Assembly (NCBI GenBank): GCA_900551625.1 | Contig: URWZ01000022.1 | Span: forward strand, 1-12,566 | Source of the DNA: an uncultured Collinsella sp. | GTDB lineage: Bacteria; Actinomycetota; Coriobacteriia; Coriobacteriales; Coriobacteriaceae | DNA length: 12,566 nt | Direction of reading: 5' to 3' | Shown here: piece by piece, positions 2,598-12,566 of the stretch | How positions within the stretch are numbered: position 1 is the first letter of the stretch | Layout: every line of letters begins with the position of its first letter | The notes under the pieces: generated by a model | What the model was told of the DNA's origin: nothing | What the model saw: only the letters and a program-made list of their open reading frames with translations | Databases searched by the model: none | Made by a program: the position numbers and the translations under genes

Positions 2598-3023
2598 ATG
2601 AAGCAGGGTATCCATCCCCAGTATGTCGAGTGCACGGTGACGTGCTCCTGCGGCAACACCTTCAAGACGCACGCTACCGTGTCCGAGATGAAGGTCGAGC
2701 TTTGCAACGAGTGCCACCCGTTCTACACCGGCCAGCAGAAGTTCGTCGACACCGGTGGACGCGTCCAGCGCTTCGCCGACAAGTTCGGTGGCGCCGCTGC
2801 CGCTCAGCTCAAGAAGGCCGAGGAGGCCAAGGCTGCCAAGGCCGCCAAGGCTGCTGAGGCCGAGGCCGCTCGCAAGGCCGCCGCTGAGGCTAAGGCTGCC
2901 GAGAAGGCCAAGCGTGCCGCTAAGTTTGCCGAGGAGGCTGCCAAGCAGGCCGCCGAGGCTCCCGCAGAGGCTCCCGTCGAGGAGGCCGCTGCCGAGGCCG
3001 AGACCACCGAGGCTGCTGAGTAA
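2598..3023 (+). CDS. rpmE: 50S ribosomal protein L31 with a long C-terminal A/K/E tail
   Basis: Residues 1-65 are a typical zinc-binding (C+) L31 of the large ribosomal subunit: MKQGIHPQY at the start, C16-x-C18 and C36-x-x-C39 as zinc ligands, then [21 protein letters not shown]31 helps form the central intersubunit bridge. Normal L31 ends near residue 65-80. Here a low-complexity tail of about 76 residues follows, first Lys/Ala-rich (66-118), then acidic with Ala, Glu and Pro (about 119-141). The frame is open, with normal GCC/AAG/GAG codon use and a proper TAA, so the tail looks real, not a frameshift. AAGGAG lies 7 nt before the ATG. The gene has its own promoter, leader and terminator and is probably monocistronic. 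Confidence 0.96.
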
Positions 3024-3056
3024 ATAGCTCGCCGCGGAATCACTCGTATTCATGGC

Positions 3057-3096
3057 TAAAGGGCCGCGTATCCATCTGGGTGCGCGGCCCTTTTCT
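3057..3096 (+). terminator. rpmE intrinsic terminator
   Basis: GGGCCGCG (3061-3068) pairs with CGCGGCCC (3083-3090) around a 14-nt loop. AAA precedes it and TTTTCTC follows. It lies 34 nt after the rpmE stop codon. Confidence 0.92.
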
Positions 3097-3100
3097 CTTA

Positions 3101-3133
3101 TTGGTGCAAACGACCCCATCCCCATGGCACCAA
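3101..3133 (-). repeat. 33-nt palindromic element, copy 1
   Basis: Read on the minus strand this is a 33-nt unit: a 10-nt arm starting TTGGTGC, a diverged core GGGGATGGG, the tetramer GTCG, and a 10-nt arm ending GCACCAA. Arms are complementary at 8 of 10 positions. It is separated by one base from an inverted partner copy at 3135-3167, so the pair can also fold into one hairpin with a 13-bp outer stem (3101-3113 with 3155-3167). Confidence 0.75.
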
Positions 3134-3134
3134 A

Positions 3135-3167
3135 TTGGTGCGAAGGGGACAGGCTCGTTTGCACCAA
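3135..3167 (+). repeat. 33-nt palindromic element, copy 2
   Basis: A 10-nt arm (TTGGTGCGAA), the core GGGGACAGG, the tetramer CTCG and the arm TTTGCACCAA. The arms pair along their full length with one G-T wobble. It has the same layout and length as copies 1, 3 and 4. Confidence 0.85.
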
Positions 3168-3198
3168 AAGGTAGGATGCAGCGTTTTCCCAGATAAAA

Positions 3199-3231
3199 CC
3201 TGCCAAAATAAACCAGTCCCTTTTTGGCAGG
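3199..3231 (-). repeat. 33-nt palindromic element, copy 3
   Basis: On the minus strand: arm CCTGCCAAAA, core AGGGACTGG, tetramer TTTA, arm TTTTGGCAGG, with perfectly complementary 10-nt arms. Similarity to copy 4 continues past the unit: 3192-3230 matches 12479-12517 in inverse orientation at 37 of 39 positions. Confidence 0.85.
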
Positions 3232-3349
3232 CTGTCGTAGTTATTACGTGGTCGAGCGTGTCGACCGCATAGGCGGCGCCTTGTTTGGCTAAAGTACAAA
3301 TATCTGTGTTTAACTCGTCCAAGGTTTCATGCCGCGGGCGATGGCCAAA

Positions 3350-3355
3350 AAGGAA
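3350..3355 (+). promoter_or_regulatory. secA ribosome binding site
   Basis: AAGGAA lies 6 nt before the ATG at 3362. This decides the start: the upstream in-frame ATG at 3329 has no such site, and the ATG at 3371 is too far away. Confidence 0.65.
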
Positions 3356-3361
3356 AACCAC

Positions 3362-6168
<2,807 letters not shown>

Positions 6169-6169
<1 letters not shown>

Positions 6170-7317
6170 TGGCCGAGACTCTAGAGGTGACGCCCGCCGA
6201 GTTGGACGCATTTGCGGACCGACTCGGCGAGGTCGAGTCGTATCTCCATTTGGACGAGAAGCGCACCCGCGTAACGGAGCTCGAGGCCAAAAGCGTCGCC
6301 CCGGGCTTTTGGGACGATGCCGATGCAGCTCGCGCCACGATGGAGGAGATTGCGCGCGCCAAGGAGGACATCGCCGCCGTGGATACCGCGCGCGGAGAGC
6401 TTTCCGATGCTCGCGCCGCGTTGGAGCTTGCCGAGGAAATGGGCGATGACCCCGATGCCGCTGCGCTGCGTGAGGAGGCTGCCGCCACGGCGGAGCGCCT
6501 ATCCCGCGCCATCGACGAGCTTGAGCTTGCGAGCTGGTTTACCGGGGAGTTCGACCATGGCGACGCGATTGTGACCATCAAGCCCGGACAGGGTGGCTTG
6601 GAGGCCCAGGACTGGACCTTCATGCTCTTTAAGATGTACATGAAGTACTGCCAGCGCCGCGGTTGGAAGGTCACCATCAACGATTGCCCCGCGGCCGAGG
6701 TCATCGGCATCGATCGCGCGACCTTTACCGTCGAAGGCAAGGATGCCTTTGGCATGCTTCGCGCCGAGGCCGGAGTTCACCGCCTGGTGCGCATTAGCCC
6801 CACCGACGACAAGAAGCGCCGCCAGACCACGTTTGCCGGCGTCGAGGTCATTCCGGTGCTACCCGACGATATCGATATCGAGATTAATCCCGATGACATT
6901 CGCGTCGACGTATACCACGCAAGCGGCCCGGGCGGTCAGGGCGTCAACACCACCGACTCCGCCGTGCGCGTGACGCATTTCCCCAGCGGTATCGTGGTCA
7001 CGTGTCAAAACGAGCGCAGCCAGATTCAAAACAAGGCCGCGTGCATGCAGATCCTCAAGGCGCGTCTGTACGAGATTGAGCTCGAAAAGCGCGCCGAGGC
7101 CCTGGATGAGATTCGCGGACCCAAGACCACAATTGGTTTTGGCAACCAGATCCGCAGCTACGTGCTCTACCCGTACCAGATGGTTAAGGACCTGCGCACG
7201 GGCGTGGAGACCAGCAACGTCGAGGCCGTTCTTGACGACGGCGATCTGGATCCGTTTGTGATTGGCTATCACCGTTGGGCTACCGGCAACGCTGACGCGG
7301 AGACCCCGTCCGCATAG
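6169..7317 (+). CDS. prfB: Peptide chain release factor 2 (RF2), no programmed frameshift
   Basis: A 382-residue class I release factor that ends translation at UGA and UAA. The peptidyl-tRNA hydrolysis motif GGQ is at 255-257 in SGPGGQGVNTTDSAVR. The codon-recognition loop reads S210-P211-T212 in RLVRISPTDDKKRRQTTF, where RF2 normally has SPF. The overall sequence (DDIDIEINPDDIRVDVYHASG; SQIQNKAACMQILKARLYE) is clearly RF2 and not RF1. Many bacteria need a +1 frameshift near codon 26 (CTT TGA C after a Shine-Dalgarno-like stretch); here the corresponding region encodes VESYLHLDEKR in one continuous frame with no in-frame TGA, so that autoregulation is absent. The ATG overlaps the secA TAA by one base, which fits the common secA-prfB gene order. 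Confidence 0.96.
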
Positions 7318-7336
7318 ACCGCTCGGTTTATGCGGA
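7309..7336 (+). other. Hairpin spanning the prfB stop codon
   Basis: TCCGCATA (7309-7316) pairs with TATGCGGA (7329-7336); a G-T pair and an ACC/GGT inner stem follow. The hairpin contains the TAG stop at 7315-7317. No T-run follows, so it is not a classical terminator; it may protect the 3' end or slow ribosomes at the stop. Confidence 0.55.
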
Positions 7337-7357
7337 AATGGATTAAAGCCCTCCGAG

Positions 7358-7408
7358 CAGGGTGGTTTTGTATCCAGAACATACCCTGTACAGGGGTGGT
7401 TTTTGTCC
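7358..7408 (+). repeat. Two imperfect 18-nt direct repeats
   Basis: CAGGGTGGTTTTGTATCC at 7358-7375 recurs, slightly changed, as CAGGGGTGGTTTTTGTCC at 7391-7408, with starts 33 nt apart. Each is preceded by a CCCT that can pair with the AGGG (CCCTCCGAGCAGGG and CCCTGTACAGGG), so each looks like a small hairpin followed by a T-rich tract, a weak terminator-like shape. Possibly tandem weak terminators of the secA-prfB operon. Confidence 0.5.
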
Positions 7409-7418
7409 GGCGAATCGG

Positions 7419-7424
7419 TAGAAT
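7419..7424 (+). promoter_or_regulatory. Candidate -10 for yitT
   Basis: TAGAAT lies 61 nt upstream of the YitT start codon. The sequence at -35 spacing (GTGGTT) is weak. If used, the transcript would begin near 7431 and meet the terminator hairpin before the ribosome binding site. Confidence 0.3.
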
Positions 7425-7443
7425 CGAATACAAGAAGAAGTTC

Positions 7444-7472
7444 AAAGCGCATCCGATGGGGTGCGCTTTTTT
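7444..7472 (+). terminator. Intrinsic terminator or attenuator directly before yitT
   Basis: AAAGCGCA (7444-7451) pairs with TGCGCTTT (7462-7469); T-G, C-G and C-G pairs extend the stem around a GATG loop, and a run of six T ends at 7472. It is a strong intrinsic terminator. The next base begins the yitT ribosome binding site, so it either ends the prfB operon or attenuates yitT. Confidence 0.85.
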
Positions 7473-7480
7473 AAAGGAGG
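7473..7480 (+). promoter_or_regulatory. yitT ribosome binding site
   Basis: AAAGGAGG, a near-perfect Shine-Dalgarno, lies 4 nt before the ATG at 7485. It selects this start over the GTG at 7461, which lies inside the terminator stem. Confidence 0.85.
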
Positions 7481-7484
7481 CAGC

Positions 7485-8375
7485 ATGGCATATCGTCTGG
7501 ACATCAAGCGCATTCTTTCGATGAACTTCTTTCACGATCTACCCCAGATCATGTTGGGGTGTGCCTTGGCCGCCATCGCGACCGACCTGTTTTTGATTCC
7601 CAACGGTCTTGCAGCCGGTGGCGTTACGGGCCTTGCGACGATTATCCAGGCAGTCGGCGCAGCGCGAGGCGTGTCGCTTCCTGTCGGTATCCAGACCATC
7701 GTGATGAATGCCTTGCTGCTGCTGGTCGTTATGCGCGAGGGCGGCATGTTCTATGTGGTGCAGACGGCGACGGGCTTTGTGCTTCTGGGCTTCTTTACCG
7801 ATCTGTTTGCCCCGTTTGTAGCGCCTCTGGCACATGCTGACCTGATGCTTCCCGCTATGTGGGGCGGCATTATCACGGGCATCGGTTACGGCATGGTATT
7901 GCGCGCTGGCGCCAACACCGGCGGCTCGGACACGATTGGCCAAATCATCTCGCGTAACACCTCGCTGCCGGTGGGCTCGACCGTCATGGCAATCGACGTT
8001 GCCGTATGTGCGGCATCGGCTCCGGTCTTCTCGCTCGAAAATGCTCTGTATGCAGGACTTTCGATGGTGATCAGCGGCTATGTGATCGACGCCGTGGTCG
8101 ATGGCGGCAATAAGCGTCGTATGGTGCTCATCATCTCGGATAACTTCCCCGATATCGCGGCCGACATCATGTATGGCCTGGGCCGCGGCTGCACCAAATT
8201 AAAGGCGACCGGTATGTATTCGGGCGTCGAGAAGCCGGTGATCATGGTGATCGTTAGCCGTCGAGAGCTCAACACCCTCAAAACGATCGTACGCGAGCGC
8301 GATCCTCACGCCATTGTGACGGTCGCCGACGTTACGGAAGCCTTCGGTGAAGGATTCAAGGACATTAACGCGTAG
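7485..8375 (+). CDS. YitT family membrane protein (DUF161-DUF2179)
   Basis: A 296-residue integral membrane protein. After a short amphipathic N-terminus, hydrophobic segments lie at about 20-42, 45-58, 66-83, 90-112, 122-142 and 165-200. The conserved YitT signature appears as GYGMVLRAGANTGGSDTIGQII (about 134-155). The soluble C-terminal part (about 210-290: RRMVLIISDNFPDIA, TGMYSGVEKPVIMVIV, RERDPHAIVTVADVTEAFGEGF) is a DUF2179 domain, which in relatives has a ferredoxin/PII-like fold and may bind a ligand. YitT proteins are thought to be transporters but no substrate is established. Transcription is probably separate from prfB because an intrinsic terminator lies between them. Confidence 0.93.
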   Translation: MAYRLDIKRILSMNFFHDLPQIMLGCALAAIATDLFLIPNGLAAGGVTGLATIIQAVGAARGVSLPVGIQTIVMNALLLLVVMREGGMFYVVQTATGFVLLGFFTDLFAPFVAPLAHADLMLPAMWGGIITGIGYGMVLRAGANTGGSDTIGQIISRNTSLPVGSTVMAIDVAVCAASAPVFSLENALYAGLSMVISGYVIDAVVDGGNKRRMVLIISDNFPDIAADIMYGLGRGCTKLKATGMYSGVEKPVIMVIVSRRELNTLKTIVRERDPHAIVTVADVTEAFGEGFKDINA

Positions 8376-8610
8376 GCTGAATTTCGGTTTGCGGATCATT
8401 TTTGTGCCGGGGCGAGAGGCAGCCACCGCATCCAAAAGACGTTCACATTGGTAAACCGTTTCATCAGCGATTCTGCCTGCTCAATTGTTCAAATAATGAT
8501 AAATACTCTGGTAAAGCTTCCAGTTTCCAGCATAATGAATGACGTACGTGCATCGCGGCTGGGTTGGGACTACCTTTCTGTGCCGTGCGCATCTTGTCTA
8601 AAGAGGATGA
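8376..8610 (+). other. Intergenic region upstream of the transketolase operon
   Basis: This stretch of about 235 nt has no gene. A patch at about 8480-8545 is clearly AT-richer than its surroundings (for example TTGTTCAAATAATGATAAAT) and probably carries the transketolase promoter. Candidates such as CATAAT near 8532 lack a good -35, so no exact promoter is called. No terminator for yitT is evident. Confidence 0.4.
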
Positions 8611-8622
8611 AAGGAAGGCACA

Positions 8623-9453
8623 ATGAGCGACGAAGAGCTCAAAAAGGTTGCCAACGAGGTAAGGAAGGGCATCGTCACCGGCGTGCACGCTGCCAAATCC
8701 GGCCATCCGGGCGGTTCGCTCGGCGCTGCCGACATCATGACCTATCTGTACTTTGAGGAAATGAACGTCGACCCGGCCGATCCCCGCAAGGCCGATCGCG
8801 ACCGCTTTGTGCTCTCTAAGGGCCATTGCGCTCCGGGCCTGTACGCCGTGCTCGCCGAGCGTGGGTTCTTCCCCAAGGAGGATCTCGAGACGCTGCGCCA
8901 TATCGGCAGCCACCTGCAGGGTCACCCCAACATGAACGACACCCCGGGCGTCGACATGTCCACCGGCTCGCTCGGCCAGGGCATCTCCGCCGCCGTGGGC
9001 ATGGCCGTTGCCGCCAAGCACTGGGGCGATACTTACCGTACGTACGCCCTGCTGGGCGATGGCGAGAGCGAGGAGGGCCAAGTTTGGGAGGCCGCTATGT
9101 TTGCCGGCAACCAACAGCTCGACAACCTCTGCGTGATCGTCGACCACAACGGCCTGCAGATCGATGGTCCCGTCGAGGAGGTCAACGACCCCATGCCGCT
9201 GGCAGACAAGTTCCGCGCCTTTAAGTTCCACGTGGTGGAGCTTGCCGACGGCAACGACTTCGATCAGATCCGCGCCGCCTTTGCCGAGGCCCGCGCCACC
9301 AAGGGTCAGCCTACCGCCATTATCGCCGAGACCACAAAGGGCAAGGGCGTCTCCTTTATGGAGAACCAGGTGGGTTGGCACGGTAAGGCCCCCAACGATG
9401 AACAGTTTGAGCAGGCCATGGCAGAGCTCACGGCCGCCGGAGAGGAGCTCTAG
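8623..9453 (+). CDS. tktN: Transketolase, N-terminal (TPP-binding) subunit
   Basis: A 276-residue protein equal to the N-terminal third of a full transketolase, which moves two-carbon units between sugar phosphates in the pentose phosphate pathway. The substrate-binding SGHPGGSLGAAD is at 26-37, and the thiamine pyrophosphate/Mg2+ motif runs from GDGESEEGQ (145-153) to VDHNG (Asn176). Other family landmarks are SKGHCAPGLYA (65-75) and STGSLGQGIS (113-122). AAGGAAGG lies 4 nt upstream of the ATG. The enzyme must pair with the C-terminal subunit encoded one base downstream; split transketolases are common in anaerobic Firmicutes and Actinobacteria. The same split layout is used by some sugar-acid or amino-sugar transketolase paralogues, so a side role is possible. 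Confidence 0.95.
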   Translation: MSDEELKKVANEVRKGIVTGVHAAKSGHPGGSLGAADIMTYLYFEEMNVDPADPRKADRDRFVLSKGHCAPGLYAVLAERGFFPKEDLETLRHIGSHLQGHPNMNDTPGVDMSTGSLGQGISAAVGMAVAAKHWGDTYRTYALLGDGESEEGQVWEAAMFAGNQQLDNLCVIVDHNGLQIDGPVEEVNDPMPLADKFRAFKFHVVELADGNDFDQIRAAFAEARATKGQPTAIIAETTKGKGVSFMENQVGWHGKAPNDEQFEQAMAELTAAGEEL

Positions 9454-9454
9454 G

Positions 9455-10396
9455 ATGGCAGACGTCAAGAAAATCGCCACGCGCGTAAGCTACGGCGAGG
9501 CCCTCGTCGAGCTCGCCAACGAGCACGATGACTTTGTGGTCCTCGACGCCGACCTGGCCGCCGCCACGCAGACCGGTAAGTTTAAGGCAGCCTGCCCCGA
9601 CCGCTTCTTCGATGTGGGCATTGCCGAGAGCAACCTGATGGGCGTTGCCGCCGGTATCGCAACCACCGGCCGCGTTGCCTTCGCGAGCACCTTTGCCATG
9701 TTTGCCGCCGGCCGCGCCTTTGAGCAGGTCCGTAACTCCATTGGCTACCCGCATCTCAACGTCAAGATCGGCGCCACGCACGCCGGTATCTCGGTGGGCG
9801 AGGACGGCGCCACGCACCAGTGCTGCGAAGATATCGCCCTGATGCGCGTCATTCCCGGCATGACCGTCATCGTTCCCGCCGATGACGTCGAGGCCCGCGC
9901 CGTGACGCGCGCCGCCTACGAGTGCGACGGTCCCGTGTACATGCGCTTTGCCCGCCTGGCCTCGCCGGTCATCAACGACCCCGAGACCTACAAGTTCGAG
10001 TTGGGCAAGGGCATCGTTATGCGCGAGGGCGCCGACGTTACCATCATTGCCTGCGGTCTGATGGTCGGCGAGGCCCTCGAGGCCGCCGAGCAGCTCGCTG
10101 CCGAGGGTATCGACGCCGAGGTCATCAACATGCACACCATCAAGCCCATCGACGCCGACCTGGTCGTTAAGAGCGCTACCAAGACCGGTCACGTCGTGAC
10201 CGTCGAGGAGCACTCCGTGATCGGTGGCCTGGGCAGCGCCGTTGCCGACGTCCTGTGCGAGCAGTGCCCGACGCCGCTCAAGAAGATTGGCGTCAACGAC
10301 ACGTTCGGCGAGTCCGGCCCGGGTGCCGAGCTCCTGCACAAGTACGGTCTGGACGCCGCGAACATCGTGGCGACCACCAAGGAGTTCTTGGCATAA
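9455..10396 (+). CDS. tktC: Transketolase, C-terminal subunit
   Basis: A 313-residue protein holding the pyrimidine-binding and C-terminal domains of transketolase. The catalytic glutamate that activates thiamine pyrophosphate is Glu58 in DVGIAESNLMG, and the conserved THAGISVGEDGATHQ (108-122) and RFARL region (about 170) follow. The last 120 residues (GKGIVMREGADVTIIACGLMV onward) form the transketolase C-terminal domain. The ATG follows the partner's TAG by one base, and its AGAGGAG ribosome binding site (9441-9447) lies inside the last codons of that partner, so both chains are made together. The frame is open far upstream to 9164, but that part overlaps the partner gene and is not used. 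Confidence 0.95.
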   Translation: MADVKKIATRVSYGEALVELANEHDDFVVLDADLAAATQTGKFKAACPDRFFDVGIAESNLMGVAAGIATTGRVAFASTFAMFAAGRAFEQVRNSIGYPHLNVKIGATHAGISVGEDGATHQCCEDIALMRVIPGMTVIVPADDVEARAVTRAAYECDGPVYMRFARLASPVINDPETYKFELGKGIVMREGADVTIIACGLMVGEALEAAEQLAAEGIDAEVINMHTIKPIDADLVVKSATKTGHVVTVEEHSVIGGLGSAVADVLCEQCPTPLKKIGVNDTFGESGPGAELLHKYGLDAANIVATTKEFLA

Positions 10397-10444
10397 GGCA
10401 AGGCGGATCTCAAGGACTGCTTCGCCAGTACTATGGAAACCCGG

Positions 10445-10476
10445 CAGGGGCGCTCTCTTGGAGGGCGCCCCTGTTT
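10445..10476 (+). terminator. Transketolase operon terminator
   Basis: CAGGGGCGC (10445-10453) and GCGCCCCTG (10465-10473) form a perfect 9-bp stem, then TTT. It lies 49 nt after the tktC stop and about 30 nt before the insertion sequence begins. Confidence 0.85.
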
Positions 10477-10502
10477 CAGTTGCGGTGAAATAAGGACTGT
10501 TT

Positions 10503-11801
10503 GGGGGTGCGGACGATTTCTTGGACCGCGCCTAGGCGTATCCAAGCTTCCTGCGGTACTCCATCGGGCTGAGCCACCCGAGGGACTTCTTTATCCGCCC
10601 CTCGCGATAATACACGAGGTAGGCCTCGAGCCTGCCCATGAACTCCCCGGCCGTCACGCCCTCCCAGTCCCTGTAGCGGAAGAACTCGTTCTTGAGGCGG
10701 CCGAAGAAGCCCTCGCAGGCCGAGTTGTCCGGGCTGCAGCCCTTCGCGGACATGCTCCTGACCAGCCCGTTCTCCTCGCAGATCCCGATCCACTCCGGCC
10801 AGCGGTAGTGGCCGCCGCGGTCCGAGTGGATCGTCGTGCGGGCGCCCGCCGGCCTGGCCGCGCAGGCCTTGAGCAGGCTCGAGTTCGCGAGGCGCTTGTC
10901 GGGGTGCAGCCCGATCGACCAGGCGACGGGCATCCCGTCGAAGCAGTCGATGACCGGGCTCAGGTAGACCTTCTCGCCGCCCGGGAGCCTGAACTCGGTG
11001 ATGTCGGTGAGCCACAGCCGGTTGGGCTCGTCGGCGTGGAAATTCCTGTTCACGAGGTTCTCCGGCGCCTTGGAGACCTCGCCGGCGTAGGAGCTGTAGC
11101 CCCGGGCGCGCCTCCTGTTGTAGACGACCTCGAGGCCCTCCTCGCGCATCACGCGGGCCACGCGCTTCTCGCTGGCGCGGACCCCCTCGCGGCGCAGGCG
11201 CGCCCAGACGGTGCGGTACCCCCAGCACCCCGAGCCCTCGCGGAAGATGCGCACCACGCGGTCGCGTATGTCGGCGTCGCGGTCGCGCGGCGCGGCGACG
11301 CGGGGCCTCCAGTACTCATAGGAGCTCTTCGATATCCTCAAGAAACCTGTGATCGAGCGGAGGGGCAGGGCGGTCGCCCGCCTCAATCTCTCGCCGAGCT
11401 CGCACTTGCTCCTGTTCGAGATCGAAGCCGGGTCCCACCCTTCCGCTTTTAGGTCGGCCAACACCGCCCTGAGCAGGAGGTTCTCTATCTGGTCCTCGTT
11501 GAGCCCGGCGAGCGGGCCGGTCGCGGGCGGGGCGTAGATCGACTTGTCGGGGCCCAAGCTGGCCTCCTTCCGGCGCGGTTTCCTCGCACCGATTCTACAG
11601 CGCGCCCCGGTGTAGCTGTGCGGGAGGTGGCCCGTCGCCCACTTCTTGGCCGCGCCCACCGTGACCCCCGCGAACTTCGCGGCGGCGGTCGGCCCCATGC
11701 CGTCCTCCGTCGCCAGGAGGAAGAGCTCGACCTTCTCCCTGCTGTACATGCGAACCTCCAGTCCGGACCGCTTCACGGTCCAACTTTCTGTCCGCACCCC
11801 C
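10503..11801 (-). mobile_element. IS3-family insertion sequence, complete
   Basis: About 1.3 kb bounded by imperfect 28-bp inverted repeats, 10503-10530 and 11774-11801. The outer 12 bp (GGGGGTGCGGAC) and an inner block (TTGGACCG) are identical, while the 6 bp between them differ completely. The left repeat ends next to the transposase stop codon. The pentamer TAAGG occurs at 11802-11806 directly outside the right repeat and at 10491-10495, 7 nt outside the left repeat. It may be the target duplication if the left end extends to 10496; IS3 duplications are usually 3-4 bp, so this is uncertain. The element sits between two convergent genes and breaks no coding sequence. Confidence 0.88.
10532..11749 (-). 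CDS. IS3-family transposase, single reading frame
   Basis: A 405-residue DDE transposase. From the ATG at 11749: a helix-turn-helix (about 14-35, GMGPTAAAKFAGVTVGAAKKW), a linker, the IS3 OrfB helical region (about 155-205, IREGS-type CWGYRTVWARLRREGV), then the integrase core with Asp249 (WLTDIT), Asp310 (IHSDRGG) and Glu346 (DNSACEGFFGRLKNE). The 35-residue gap between the second Asp and the Glu is the DD35E spacing of this family. Most IS3 elements make the protein by a -1 frameshift between orfA and orfB; here one intact frame spans both. The ATG has a GGAGG ribosome binding site 5 nt upstream; the GTG at 11797 lies in the terminal repeat and is rejected. All catalytic residues are present, so it may be active. 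Base composition looks even richer in GC than the neighbours. Confidence 0.93.
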   Translation of the reverse strand: MYSREKVELFLLATEDGMGPTAAAKFAGVTVGAAKKWATGHLPHSYTGARCRIGARKPRRKEASLGPDKSIYAPPATGPLAGLNEDQIENLLLRAVLADLKAEGWDPASISNRSKCELGERLRRATALPLRSITGFLRISKSSYEYWRPRVAAPRDRDADIRDRVVRIFREGSGCWGYRTVWARLRREGVRASEKRVARVMREEGLEVVYNRRRARGYSSYAGEVSKAPENLVNRNFHADEPNRLWLTDITEFRLPGGEKVYLSPVIDCFDGMPVAWSIGLHPDKRLANSSLLKACAARPAGARTTIHSDRGGHYRWPEWIGICEENGLVRSMSAKGCSPDNSACEGFFGRLKNEFFRYRDWEGVTAGEFMGRLEAYLVYYREGRIKKSLGWLSPMEYRRKLGYA

Positions 11802-11811
11802 TAAGGGGGCT

Positions 11812-11838
11812 CAAAGTGGGAGATTTTCCACGCTCATC
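11812..11838 (-). terminator. Weak terminator candidate of the cyclo-ligase gene
   Basis: On the minus strand GTGGAA and TCCCAC form a 6-bp stem (one G-T) around an AATC loop, followed only by TTTGAG. It lies about 25 nt past the stop codon and next to the right end of the insertion sequence, so insertion may have removed part of the T-run. Confidence 0.35.
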
Positions 11839-11861
11839 TTGCGGGTGCGATACAGCGGCGG

Positions 11862-12458
11862 CTAGGCGCTGACGATGTTGGGCAGCGGCAGATCGTGGGC
11901 GTCGGTGGGAACGTGGTCGATGCGCTGTTCGTCAAAGGCGATGCCGACGATTTGGCATGCGGGCGAGAGCATGGGCAGGTAGCGGTCATAGCAGCCGCCG
12001 CCGTAGCCTAGGCGCGCGCCGGTGCGGTCGAAAGCCACGAGCGGCACGACAACCATGTCGAGAGCCTTGGCGGGCACGATGGGGAAGTGGTCGCTGTCGA
12101 CGTTCGTGGCTGCGAAGGCCCGCGTGGGATGAGCGATAAACGGGGCCTCGGACGCATCGCCGGCAGAGACTGCCCGCATGCACATGCGCTGGCCACAAGC
12201 TGCGGCATCAATTGCCGAGAGCATGCACGGATAGGCTACACGCCAGCCACGCGCGGCGGCCGCAGCGGCAAACGCGGCTGGGTCGACCTCGGAACCCATC
12301 GCGGCATAGACGGCAACGGTGCGTTGGCTCGCAGTGCCGCTGGACTCCATCAGCTCAACAAGCCGCGCGCAGATAACGGCAGACTTCGCTGCCCGCAAGT
12401 CCAAATCAAGAGCATCGCGCCGAGCAATCCCCGCCCGCCGCAACTCAGCCTTGTCCAT
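11862..12458 (-). CDS. 5-formyltetrahydrofolate cyclo-ligase (MTHFS)
   Basis: A 198-residue cytosolic enzyme that uses ATP to convert 5-formyltetrahydrofolate to 5,10-methenyltetrahydrofolate, returning a folate storage form to the one-carbon pool. The N-terminal basic helix DKAELRRAGIARRDAL supplies phosphate-binding residues, VAVYAAMGSEVD is the substrate strand, and the family signature VVVPLVAFDRTGARLGYGGGCYDRYL lies near 143-168. Cys replaces the usual first Tyr of the GYGGGYYDR motif, a mild variation. Length is normal for the family. The ATG at 12458 has AGAGGG 5 nt upstream; a TTG at 12485 in the same frame lies inside a repeat and is rejected. It is convergent with the transketolase operon, with the insertion sequence between them. 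Confidence 0.92.
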   Translation of the reverse strand: MDKAELRRAGIARRDALDLDLRAAKSAVICARLVELMESSGTASQRTVAVYAAMGSEVDPAAFAAAAAARGWRVAYPCMLSAIDAAACGQRMCMRAVSAGDASEAPFIAHPTRAFAATNVDSDHFPIVPAKALDMVVVPLVAFDRTGARLGYGGGCYDRYLPMLSPACQIVGIAFDEQRIDHVPTDAHDLPLPNIVSA

Positions 12459-12477
12459 CCCGGCCCTCTCTCCCAAA

Positions 12478-12510
12478 CCTACCAAAAAGGGACAGGTTTA
12501 TTTTGGCAGG
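12478..12510 (+). repeat. 33-nt palindromic element, copy 4
   Basis: Arm CCTACCAAAA, core AGGGACAGG, tetramer TTTA, arm TTTTGGCAGG; the arms pair except for one A x C. It lies 20 nt upstream of the cyclo-ligase start codon and is nearly identical to copy 3, 9 kb away and inverted. Confidence 0.85.
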
Positions 12511-12517
12511 TTTTATC

Positions 12518-12566
12518 CTGTCTCTTATACACATCTCCGAGCCCACGAGACGCTACGCTATCTCGT
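12518..12566 (+). other. Sequencing adapter (Nextera read-2 adapter, i7 index, P7 start); not genomic
   Basis: CTGTCTCTTATACACATCT (12518-12536) is the Tn5 mosaic end used in Nextera libraries. CCGAGCCCACGAGAC (12537-12551) completes the read-2 adapter, GCTACGCT (12552-12559) matches a standard Nextera i7 index (I recall it as N709), and ATCTCGT begins the P7 tail. The last genomic base is 12517, or at most a base or two later by chance identity. Confidence 0.97.

Follow-up and report, generated by a model that had tools for sequence, protein, structure and literature searches.

How can a palindrome keep its centre and exchange its arms? The question is raised by a 12,566-nt stretch of DNA from an uncultured Collinsella sp. 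(GenBank assembly GCA_900551625.1, contig URWZ01000022.1), hereafter the window, in which four 33-nt palindromes share a core and carry either CCTGCC arms (type A) or TTGGTGC arms (type B). Our data support, with a probability of about 0.82, that these palindromes are non-autonomous repeats resembling repetitive extragenic palindromes (REPs), of the TIRYT/TIRtron kind, and that each family was spread by a Y1 transposase of its own. We found a transposase gene flanked by type A copies, and among relatives of this transposase the flanking arms follow the protein, which explains the combination of a fixed core with interchangeable arms.

Four palindromes with a common plan

The four palindromes lie at the places and on the strands that a sequence-only reading of the window had assigned to them, and comparison with copies elsewhere extends the two type A repeats beyond the palindrome:

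3101..3133, minus strand: type B palindrome (TTGGTGC arms), core GGGGATGGG; forms an inverted pair with the copy at 3135-3167, 1 nt between them
3135..3167, plus strand: type B palindrome, core GGGGACAGG
3182..3231, minus strand: type A unit, consisting of a 33-nt palindrome (3199-3231) and a 17-nt 3' tail (3182-3198), with limits taken from 46 flank-distinct copies
12478..12516, plus strand: type A unit, palindrome at 12478-12510, 3' tail truncated at the contig end

BLAST places the limits of the third copy at 3181-3231. The plan of a 10-nt arm, a 9-nt core, a 4-nt spacer and a second 10-nt arm was likewise borne out, since a strict scan (at least 8 of 10 Watson-Crick arm pairs, at least 7 of 9 core letters) returned exactly these four copies. 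In 500 first-order Markov simulations the same scan produced 10 hits in total and at most one each, and an earlier, prefiltered simulation produced 7 hits in 300 simulated windows; a looser scan was dropped as unselective (five hits in the window against a mean of 3.3 in 60 simulations).

Other parts of the earlier description need qualification. Against GGGGACAGG, the core agrees at 9/9 letters in the second copy, 8/9 in the fourth and 7/9 in the third; the first, also at 7/9, has a poor core. Each copy is self-complementary to the extent of 8/10 Watson-Crick arm pairs in copy 1, 9/10 plus one G-T in copy 2, 10/10 in copy 3 and 9/10 in copy 4, which has one mismatch in its left arm, but not every copy folds well: as single-stranded DNA, copies 2 and 3 beat shuffles (z -3.7 each), while copy 4 folds weakly (z -1.5, 15/200 shuffles equally good) and copy 1 is unremarkable (z -0.9, 37/200). 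A pyrimidine-rich spacer is not a general feature, as copy 1 has GTCG, and the length of 33 nt describes the palindrome itself and not the longer type A repeat.

Three repeat families in the Collinsella aerofaciens group

A 27-letter type A probe, allowing up to 3 mismatches and giving complete per-genome counts, matched 23 of the 197 genomes searched, including 22 of the 43 genomes in the genus, where each has 22-45 copies; the reversed pattern gave 0 in all genomes. The remaining match is one distant genome of another family (G056, 7 copies), and its sequences look like those of a transposase family belonging to that genome, one whose arms are similar (30% identity to the type A transposase described below). 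Type B occurs in the same 22 genus genomes, with 5-28 copies. A third arm type, C (CCACCAC arms), was first spotted among matches to GGGACAGG in G001, the genome nearest to the window among those compared; it is present in 24 of the 43 genus genomes, with 16-38 copies in the 22 that have type A and 1 copy in each of two others. Per-genome counts are complete for B and C too. Reversed-pattern controls for B and C were also 0, so that the check on genome-wide frequency suggested by the sequence-only reading came out far above background. The short sequence GGGACAGG alone was dropped as a genome probe, being only about twofold over its control (121 against 66). We refer to the 22 genomes that bear all three families as the Collinsella aerofaciens group.

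To delimit the units we collapsed copies with similar flanks and used copies within fetched loci only, as we also did for the pairing and stop-codon analyses. The type A unit begins about 1 nt ahead of the 5' arm, takes in the 33-nt hairpin and ends with a 17-nt 3' tail, TTTTATCTGGGNAAACG (46 flank-distinct copies), the type C unit is a 41-nt palindrome (29 copies), and the type B unit is the 33-nt palindrome alone (14 copies). The core consensus is AGGGACAG in A, GGGG[AT]CAG in B and GGGGACAG in C; in type B, GGGG.C.GG is constant and the letters between arm and core, as well as those of the spacer, are variable. Short T runs lie behind types A and C.

Two other dispersed repeats, each about 150 nt long, occur in many places of the same genomes with 79-90% similarity (L302:2073-2236 and L304:6310-6476); for these no Rfam match was obtained at gathering score.

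A transposase flanked by type A palindromes

A Pfam Y1_Tnp search gave matches in 37 of 58 relatives, and 45 Y1 loci from it were inspected. One Y1 gene, in G018, lies between type A copies, and a search of the 43 genus genomes with its intact front piece returned only three close matches (G018, G066 and G004), all others being at most 53% identical. In each of these three genomes (3 of the 22 with type A) the gene, which we call RAYT-A after the REP-associated tyrosine transposases (RAYTs), has a type A copy in the same direction about 0.3 kb before its start codon and an inverted one 0.14 kb after its stop. It is intact in G066 and G004, where it encodes 252 amino acids, and internally deleted in G018. 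The suspicion of a RAYT-type transposase encoded elsewhere was correct, the protein being of the Y1, HUH kind.

RAYT-A has kept the HUH and tyrosine motifs (NHIH and YIHLNP), and N59, H60, H62, Y119, N123 and P124 do not vary among 39 proteins selected for an alignment. It scores above the cut-off against Y1_Tnp and matches the TnpArep structure 4er8 with an E value of 1.2e-05. In TnpArep, W94, Q95 and R104 have been tied to the reading of GTAG, according to the part of PMC6006769 used here; in our reading of the alignment with 4er8 the first is replaced by F98, itself invariant in the 39 proteins, the second is kept, and the third is replaced by K108. A search for a C-terminal helix-turn-helix gave no match for RAYT-A and weak, sub-cut-off matches in some relatives, while the orphan protein of L163 narrowly exceeds the cut-off for HTH_23 (24.8 against 24.6). 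A conserved tail ends in LTGIG or similar.

The place occupied by RAYT-A differs among genomes. G012 has lost the gene and retains half a palindrome, which is consistent with deletion between short repeats. Among 17 other genomes in which the left junction was read, 16 have a type C palindrome there, and in the 17th (G011) the type C palindrome is interrupted by other DNA. Where it was matched in those genomes, the neighbouring gene is inverted (L146 and L178-L195); its edges carry type A palindromes when it points one way and type C palindromes when it points the other, and a palindrome-mediated inversion beside RAYT-A is possible.

Arms that follow the transposase

We examined the flanks of the best 80 of 524 relatives confirmed among at least 597 matching stretches, a non-random sample in which some members are near-identical and nearly all belong to Coriobacteriia by name. 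The 74 that had 300 nt on both sides were tested, and six with short flanks were excluded. Comparing each upstream flank with the reverse complement of the downstream flank, a test that makes no use of the core, we obtained a median score of 28.9 (n=74) against 11.8 for mismatched pairs, whose 95th percentile is 17.0; near-identical loci have probably raised their 99th percentile, 30.9. With a score of at least 18, a flanking inverted repeat is present in 68/74 relatives and in 8/222 mismatched pairs.

The core recurs in these repeats. On either strand, GGG[AT]C is found in 58/68 of them and in 164/1360 letter shuffles (12%), a sequence within one mismatch of GGGGWSAS in 48/68 and 183/1360 (13%), and an exact GGGGWSAS in 21/68 and 12/1360 (0.9%). 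With a preference for hairpins that have the core in the loop when these are nearly as good, a hairpin with GGG[AT]C in its loop was found in 45/74 loci and in 38/1480 shuffled windows. The claim that structure plus core is what is conserved, in a REP-like manner, is upheld here by the recurrence of the core with other arms.

The arms themselves track the protein. Arm identity is 0.40-0.43 for transposases that are 30-60% identical (573 pairs; shuffled arms, 0.34), rises to 0.68-0.75 at 60-80% identity (10 pairs) and reaches 0.96-1.0 above 80% (12 pairs). A single-link clustering of arms was left unused, as it chained 32/35 into one cluster. The GT[AG]G motif at the foot of the hairpin is at background in these loci (10/65 hairpins against 13%) and absent from the consensus next to the arms of types A, B and C.

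These features suggest how the repeats may work. A Y1 transposase (HUH, single-tyrosine) would read a single-stranded hairpin through the constant GGG[AT]C at the 5' side of the loop, a motif that may play the role that GTAG at the foot plays in canonical REPs, and the stem proper to the family would provide specificity. By analogy with TnpArep and IS608, as described in part of PMC8266576, the hairpin would be bound single-stranded and cut beside it; this cleavage, and the residues that read the core and the stem, we infer. The transposases would have in common the part that reads the core, which would keep the cores alike, and the arms would differ because transposase lineage and palindrome diverge together. 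Families A, B and C probably spread before the sampled lineages of the C. aerofaciens group split, B and C presumably by means of transposases of their own. Copies that adjoin stop codons, mostly in the sense direction, are predicted to be transcribed as 3'-end hairpins and might thereby affect the mRNA.

Inheritance of the copies and evidence against transposase-driven spread

Several results weigh against transposase-driven spread, and they concern movement, sequence conservation and the transposases in turn. Regarding movement, copy 3 is present in 15/15 orthologous loci aligned (the rearranged G012 being left out), and the position of copy 4 is occupied in 21/21 orthologous loci read. Seven further type A positions, from regions of 8 and 10.5 kb, yielded no clean empty site; copies there are mostly common to the genomes, and some genomes are without an anchor. 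A type B palindrome, single or paired, also occurs in 15/15 orthologous loci aligned. One of these two B copies lies within 34 nt that are missing from 5/15 loci (G003, G005, G007, G009 and G018), a difference that could result from slippage between the 7-nt GCACCAA direct repeats that bound it. Elsewhere, a type C palindrome stands in G018 where others have a type A one, joined at the left arm of A (L399; orthologue of L304:1108-1158), G031 is missing one A copy but is altered in the flank too, and core letters have disappeared from several shared copies in some lineages. The proposal of a REP-like mobile element stands as to its REP-like form and its link to a transposase; present-day mobility was not borne out, the positions of copies 3 and 4 being common to relatives. 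The repeats are of the TIRYT kind with a GGGGWSAS motif and not canonical REPs tagged with GTAG. The comparison of orthologous intergenic regions that accompanied the proposal turned up a single clean presence/absence difference, the type B copy just mentioned. Most of the palindromes now appear to be inherited relics.

Regarding conservation, copies of A, B and C were selected by a consensus containing the core and passed through a filter on core letters, so that the conservation of the core is partly by construction. In an arms-only search of loci that had not been fetched by the core pattern, GGG[AT]C is present in 84/99 type A and 35/45 type C sequences, with the core within one mismatch in 44/45 of the latter (orthologues not collapsed in either case), but in only 18/52 type B sequences, for which 7-nt arms with one mismatch allowed also match by chance. 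The arms of other copies pair in most instances, as the sequence-only reading had anticipated. Type A stems, with 528/590 cells paired, exceed all 1000 shuffles (maximum 520), and the totals of paired cells are not above shuffles for type C (418, maximum 419) or type B (132, maximum 136). Compensatory changes are few: 10 cells in A (shuffle mean 4.5, maximum 12), 3 in C (0.3, maximum 4) and 0 in B (0.2, maximum 3). We consider covariation of the stems to be weak evidence and have set it aside.

Regarding the transposases, RAYT-A scores 70.4 bits against REP_Tyr_transpos, below the NCBIfam cut-off of 80. Six of the 74 relatives tested lack an inverted repeat in their flanks within 600 nt, and exact GGG[AT]C is missing from the loop of 20/65 hairpins. 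A stem of at least 6 bp, found in 65 loci, says little by itself, being found in 783/1480 shuffled windows also, and the arm comparison used 35/71 loci anchored on the core, where core identity is by construction. Finally, no transposase with type B or type C flanks was found among the loci of the 80 relatives or among the earlier transposase loci L036-L080; two type B matches, poor ones and over 2 kb from transposases, were dismissed, and in G014, G065, G018 and G010, judged by eye, none of the B and C matches listed is within 2 kb of a transposase match.

Placement after stop codons and alternative explanations

The placement of the units gives grounds for a different explanation, namely that the palindromes are RNA hairpins kept at 3' ends for termination, mRNA protection or translation control, transposase spread being only their history. 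Using open frames of at least 130 codons and expectations from neighbouring bins, we found the 5' edge at -3 to +6 nt from a same-strand stop codon in 18/48 type A units (0.6 expected), 10/34 of type C (0.4 expected) and 2/15 of type B (0.3 expected), with opposite-strand stops at the 3' edge numbering 0, 2 and 1, respectively. The stops that adjoin type A are 16 TAA and 2 TAG, against 27 TAA, 16 TAG and 7 TGA among the long frames in 19 loci, and an A precedes the unit in most type A copies. Such adjacency fits both a target preference and selection that favours harmless or useful sites. A functional role is further favoured by the T runs that follow types A and C, by the persistence of units at positions common to the group, and by the report in PMC12306157 (cited here from part of the text), after earlier work, that Escherichia coli REPs less than 16 nt from a stop codon lower translation. 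Stop-adjacent copies are nonetheless a minority, several shared copies are without some core letters in some lineages, and a terminator scan, which covered window 2950-3340 only, gave as its sole terminator-like hit a separate hairpin at 3058-3093 that is none of the palindromes and is likely the terminator of the L31 gene. On balance, maintenance for a 3'-end function seems to us possible but doubtful as the explanation of the repeats, and it is compatible with their spread by transposases, neither excluding the other.

That the palindromes are derivatives of ordinary IS200/IS605 elements, in the manner of miniature inverted-repeat transposable elements and not as offshoots of RAYT/TIRYT genes, is improbable: IS200-like Y1 genes with 167-amino-acid open frames do exist, four of them in G001, but the genes that we found flanked by palindromes of the same family encode Y1 proteins of about 250 amino acids with Y...NP motifs and REP_Tyr_transpos matches. 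We are similarly sceptical that they are targets of a host protein which binds DNA or RNA and has no relation to transposases, for example an RNA binder that recognizes GGA in loops; the position of the core in a hairpin loop and its recurrence with unrelated arms would suit such a protein, which would leave unexplained both the inverted pairs of their own palindromes around transposase genes and the tracking of transposase identity by the arms. Chance, in whose favour one could at most note that copies 1 and 4 fold weakly, is refuted by the window and genome controls.

Orphan transposases and a speculative extension

An orphan Y1 protein (L174:1084-1893 and its orthologues, among them G001:C6:221375-221749) is encoded by a gene of full length. 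In the 14 genomes read, the catalytic tyrosine is kept in 4 and is a serine in 10, and in 6 of these 10 the HUH motif is altered too. Six loci around the orphan gene contain no palindromes of the present kind; in some of them the gene is closely followed by a 33-nt hairpin that has no GGGAC. We regard the protein as a candidate domesticated transposase.

A further and frankly speculative step, which we think unlikely to be right, would be a two-part code made of a constant loop motif and exchangeable stems, with RAYTs that have lost their tyrosine acting as non-cutting binders of orphan palindromes behind stop codons and so forming a genome-wide 3'-end regulator. Were such a code true, many transposase lineages could share one cleavage logic and yet stay specific. 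The loci described here amount to a broad set of natural pairs of transposase and stem around a recurring loop motif, in Actinomycetota of the gut, and with them one can test directly, by swapping arms and cores between pairs, how these single-strand nucleases distinguish the hairpin that is theirs from the rest.

Surroundings of the copies in the window

Copies 1-3 are in the interval that separates the gene of ribosomal protein L31 from that of SecA; upstream of the L31 gene, at 2555-2590, is an L31-Coriobacteria ribosomal leader (RF03128). Copy 4, at the contig end, is beside a gene for 5-formyltetrahydrofolate cyclo-ligase, on the start side of that gene; the tail of the copy ends after TTTTATC, followed by apparent sequencing-adapter sequence. 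We take positions 12517-12566, directly after copy 4, to be a Nextera-type adapter and hence an assembly artefact, not genome. An IS3-type insertion sequence (rve, HTH_21) with imperfect inverted ends occupies about 10500-11804. The orthologous loci listed match the window only from about 11802 or later, and the end of the element matches elsewhere in several genomes, with five matches in G001; the element beside the cyclo-ligase gene is probably a lineage-specific insertion.

Comparison with known systems

The literature on REPs, as far as the portions used here extend, concerns hairpins tagged with GTAG, mainly proteobacterial. The open-access titles and openings of abstracts surveyed do not name these palindromes in Collinsella or Coriobacteriia; the part of PMC12306157 that we used mentions neither 'Collinsella' nor 'GGGGAC', and the part of PMC8040213 names Collinsella once, for another RNA. 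Canonical REP/RAYT systems of E. coli, Pseudomonas and Stenotrophomonas, in the passages of PMC2817692 and PMC8266576 on which we draw, resemble the present case in their dispersed palindromes, inverted pairs and transposase flanked by its own repeats, and homology to 4er8 is a further likeness. Here, in contrast, the foot GT[AG]G is at background, the recurring motif is in the loop, and genomes have tens of copies, not hundreds. With IS200/IS605 the palindromes' transposases share the Y1_Tnp catalytic domain family and, presumably, the recognition of single-stranded hairpins, but the proteins are longer and short dispersed units take the place of whole insertion sequences.

The closest kind is TIRYT/TIRtron, or TnpAY1 subclass 2.1, an assignment made by features and not by the profiles of the survey that defined the subclasses. 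TIRYTs were described, in the portions of Di Nocera et al. 2013 (PMC3733652) used here, as Y1 transposases with flanking inverted repeats, some of them sharing GGGGWSAS; some of the repeats are self-complementary, and some belong to moderately abundant dispersed families with dimers. The main text of that paper does not contain the word "Actinobacteria". Our case agrees in the Y1 protein with HUH and Y...NP motifs, in the inverted flanking repeats and in GGGGWSAS, which GGGGACAG fits. It differs in that the Coriobacteriia repeats are mostly short self-complementary hairpins with arms that track the transposase and, in 45/74 loci, the motif in the loop, and in that three families with one core coexist in the same genomes, mostly with no transposase of their own found.

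In the parts of Quentin et al. 2018 (PMC6006769) on which we rely, subclass 2.1 is characterized by Y...NP, a C-terminal extension and GGGG[AT][CG]A[CG] in most flanking repeats, and is said probably to correspond to the TIRYTs; neither the automatic nor the manual searches of their survey are reported to have revealed REP-like sequences near 2.1 genes, and 1.1 is the only subclass it gives for Actinobacteridae. Y...NP and GGGG[AT][CG]A[CG] are alike here, whereas REP-like sequences are present, so that dispersed repeats are now assigned to a transposase subclass reported to have none. The palindromes of the window thus extend the TIRYT kind to Coriobacteriia, where its repeats can be REP-like hairpins with a loop motif and with arms that track the transposase.

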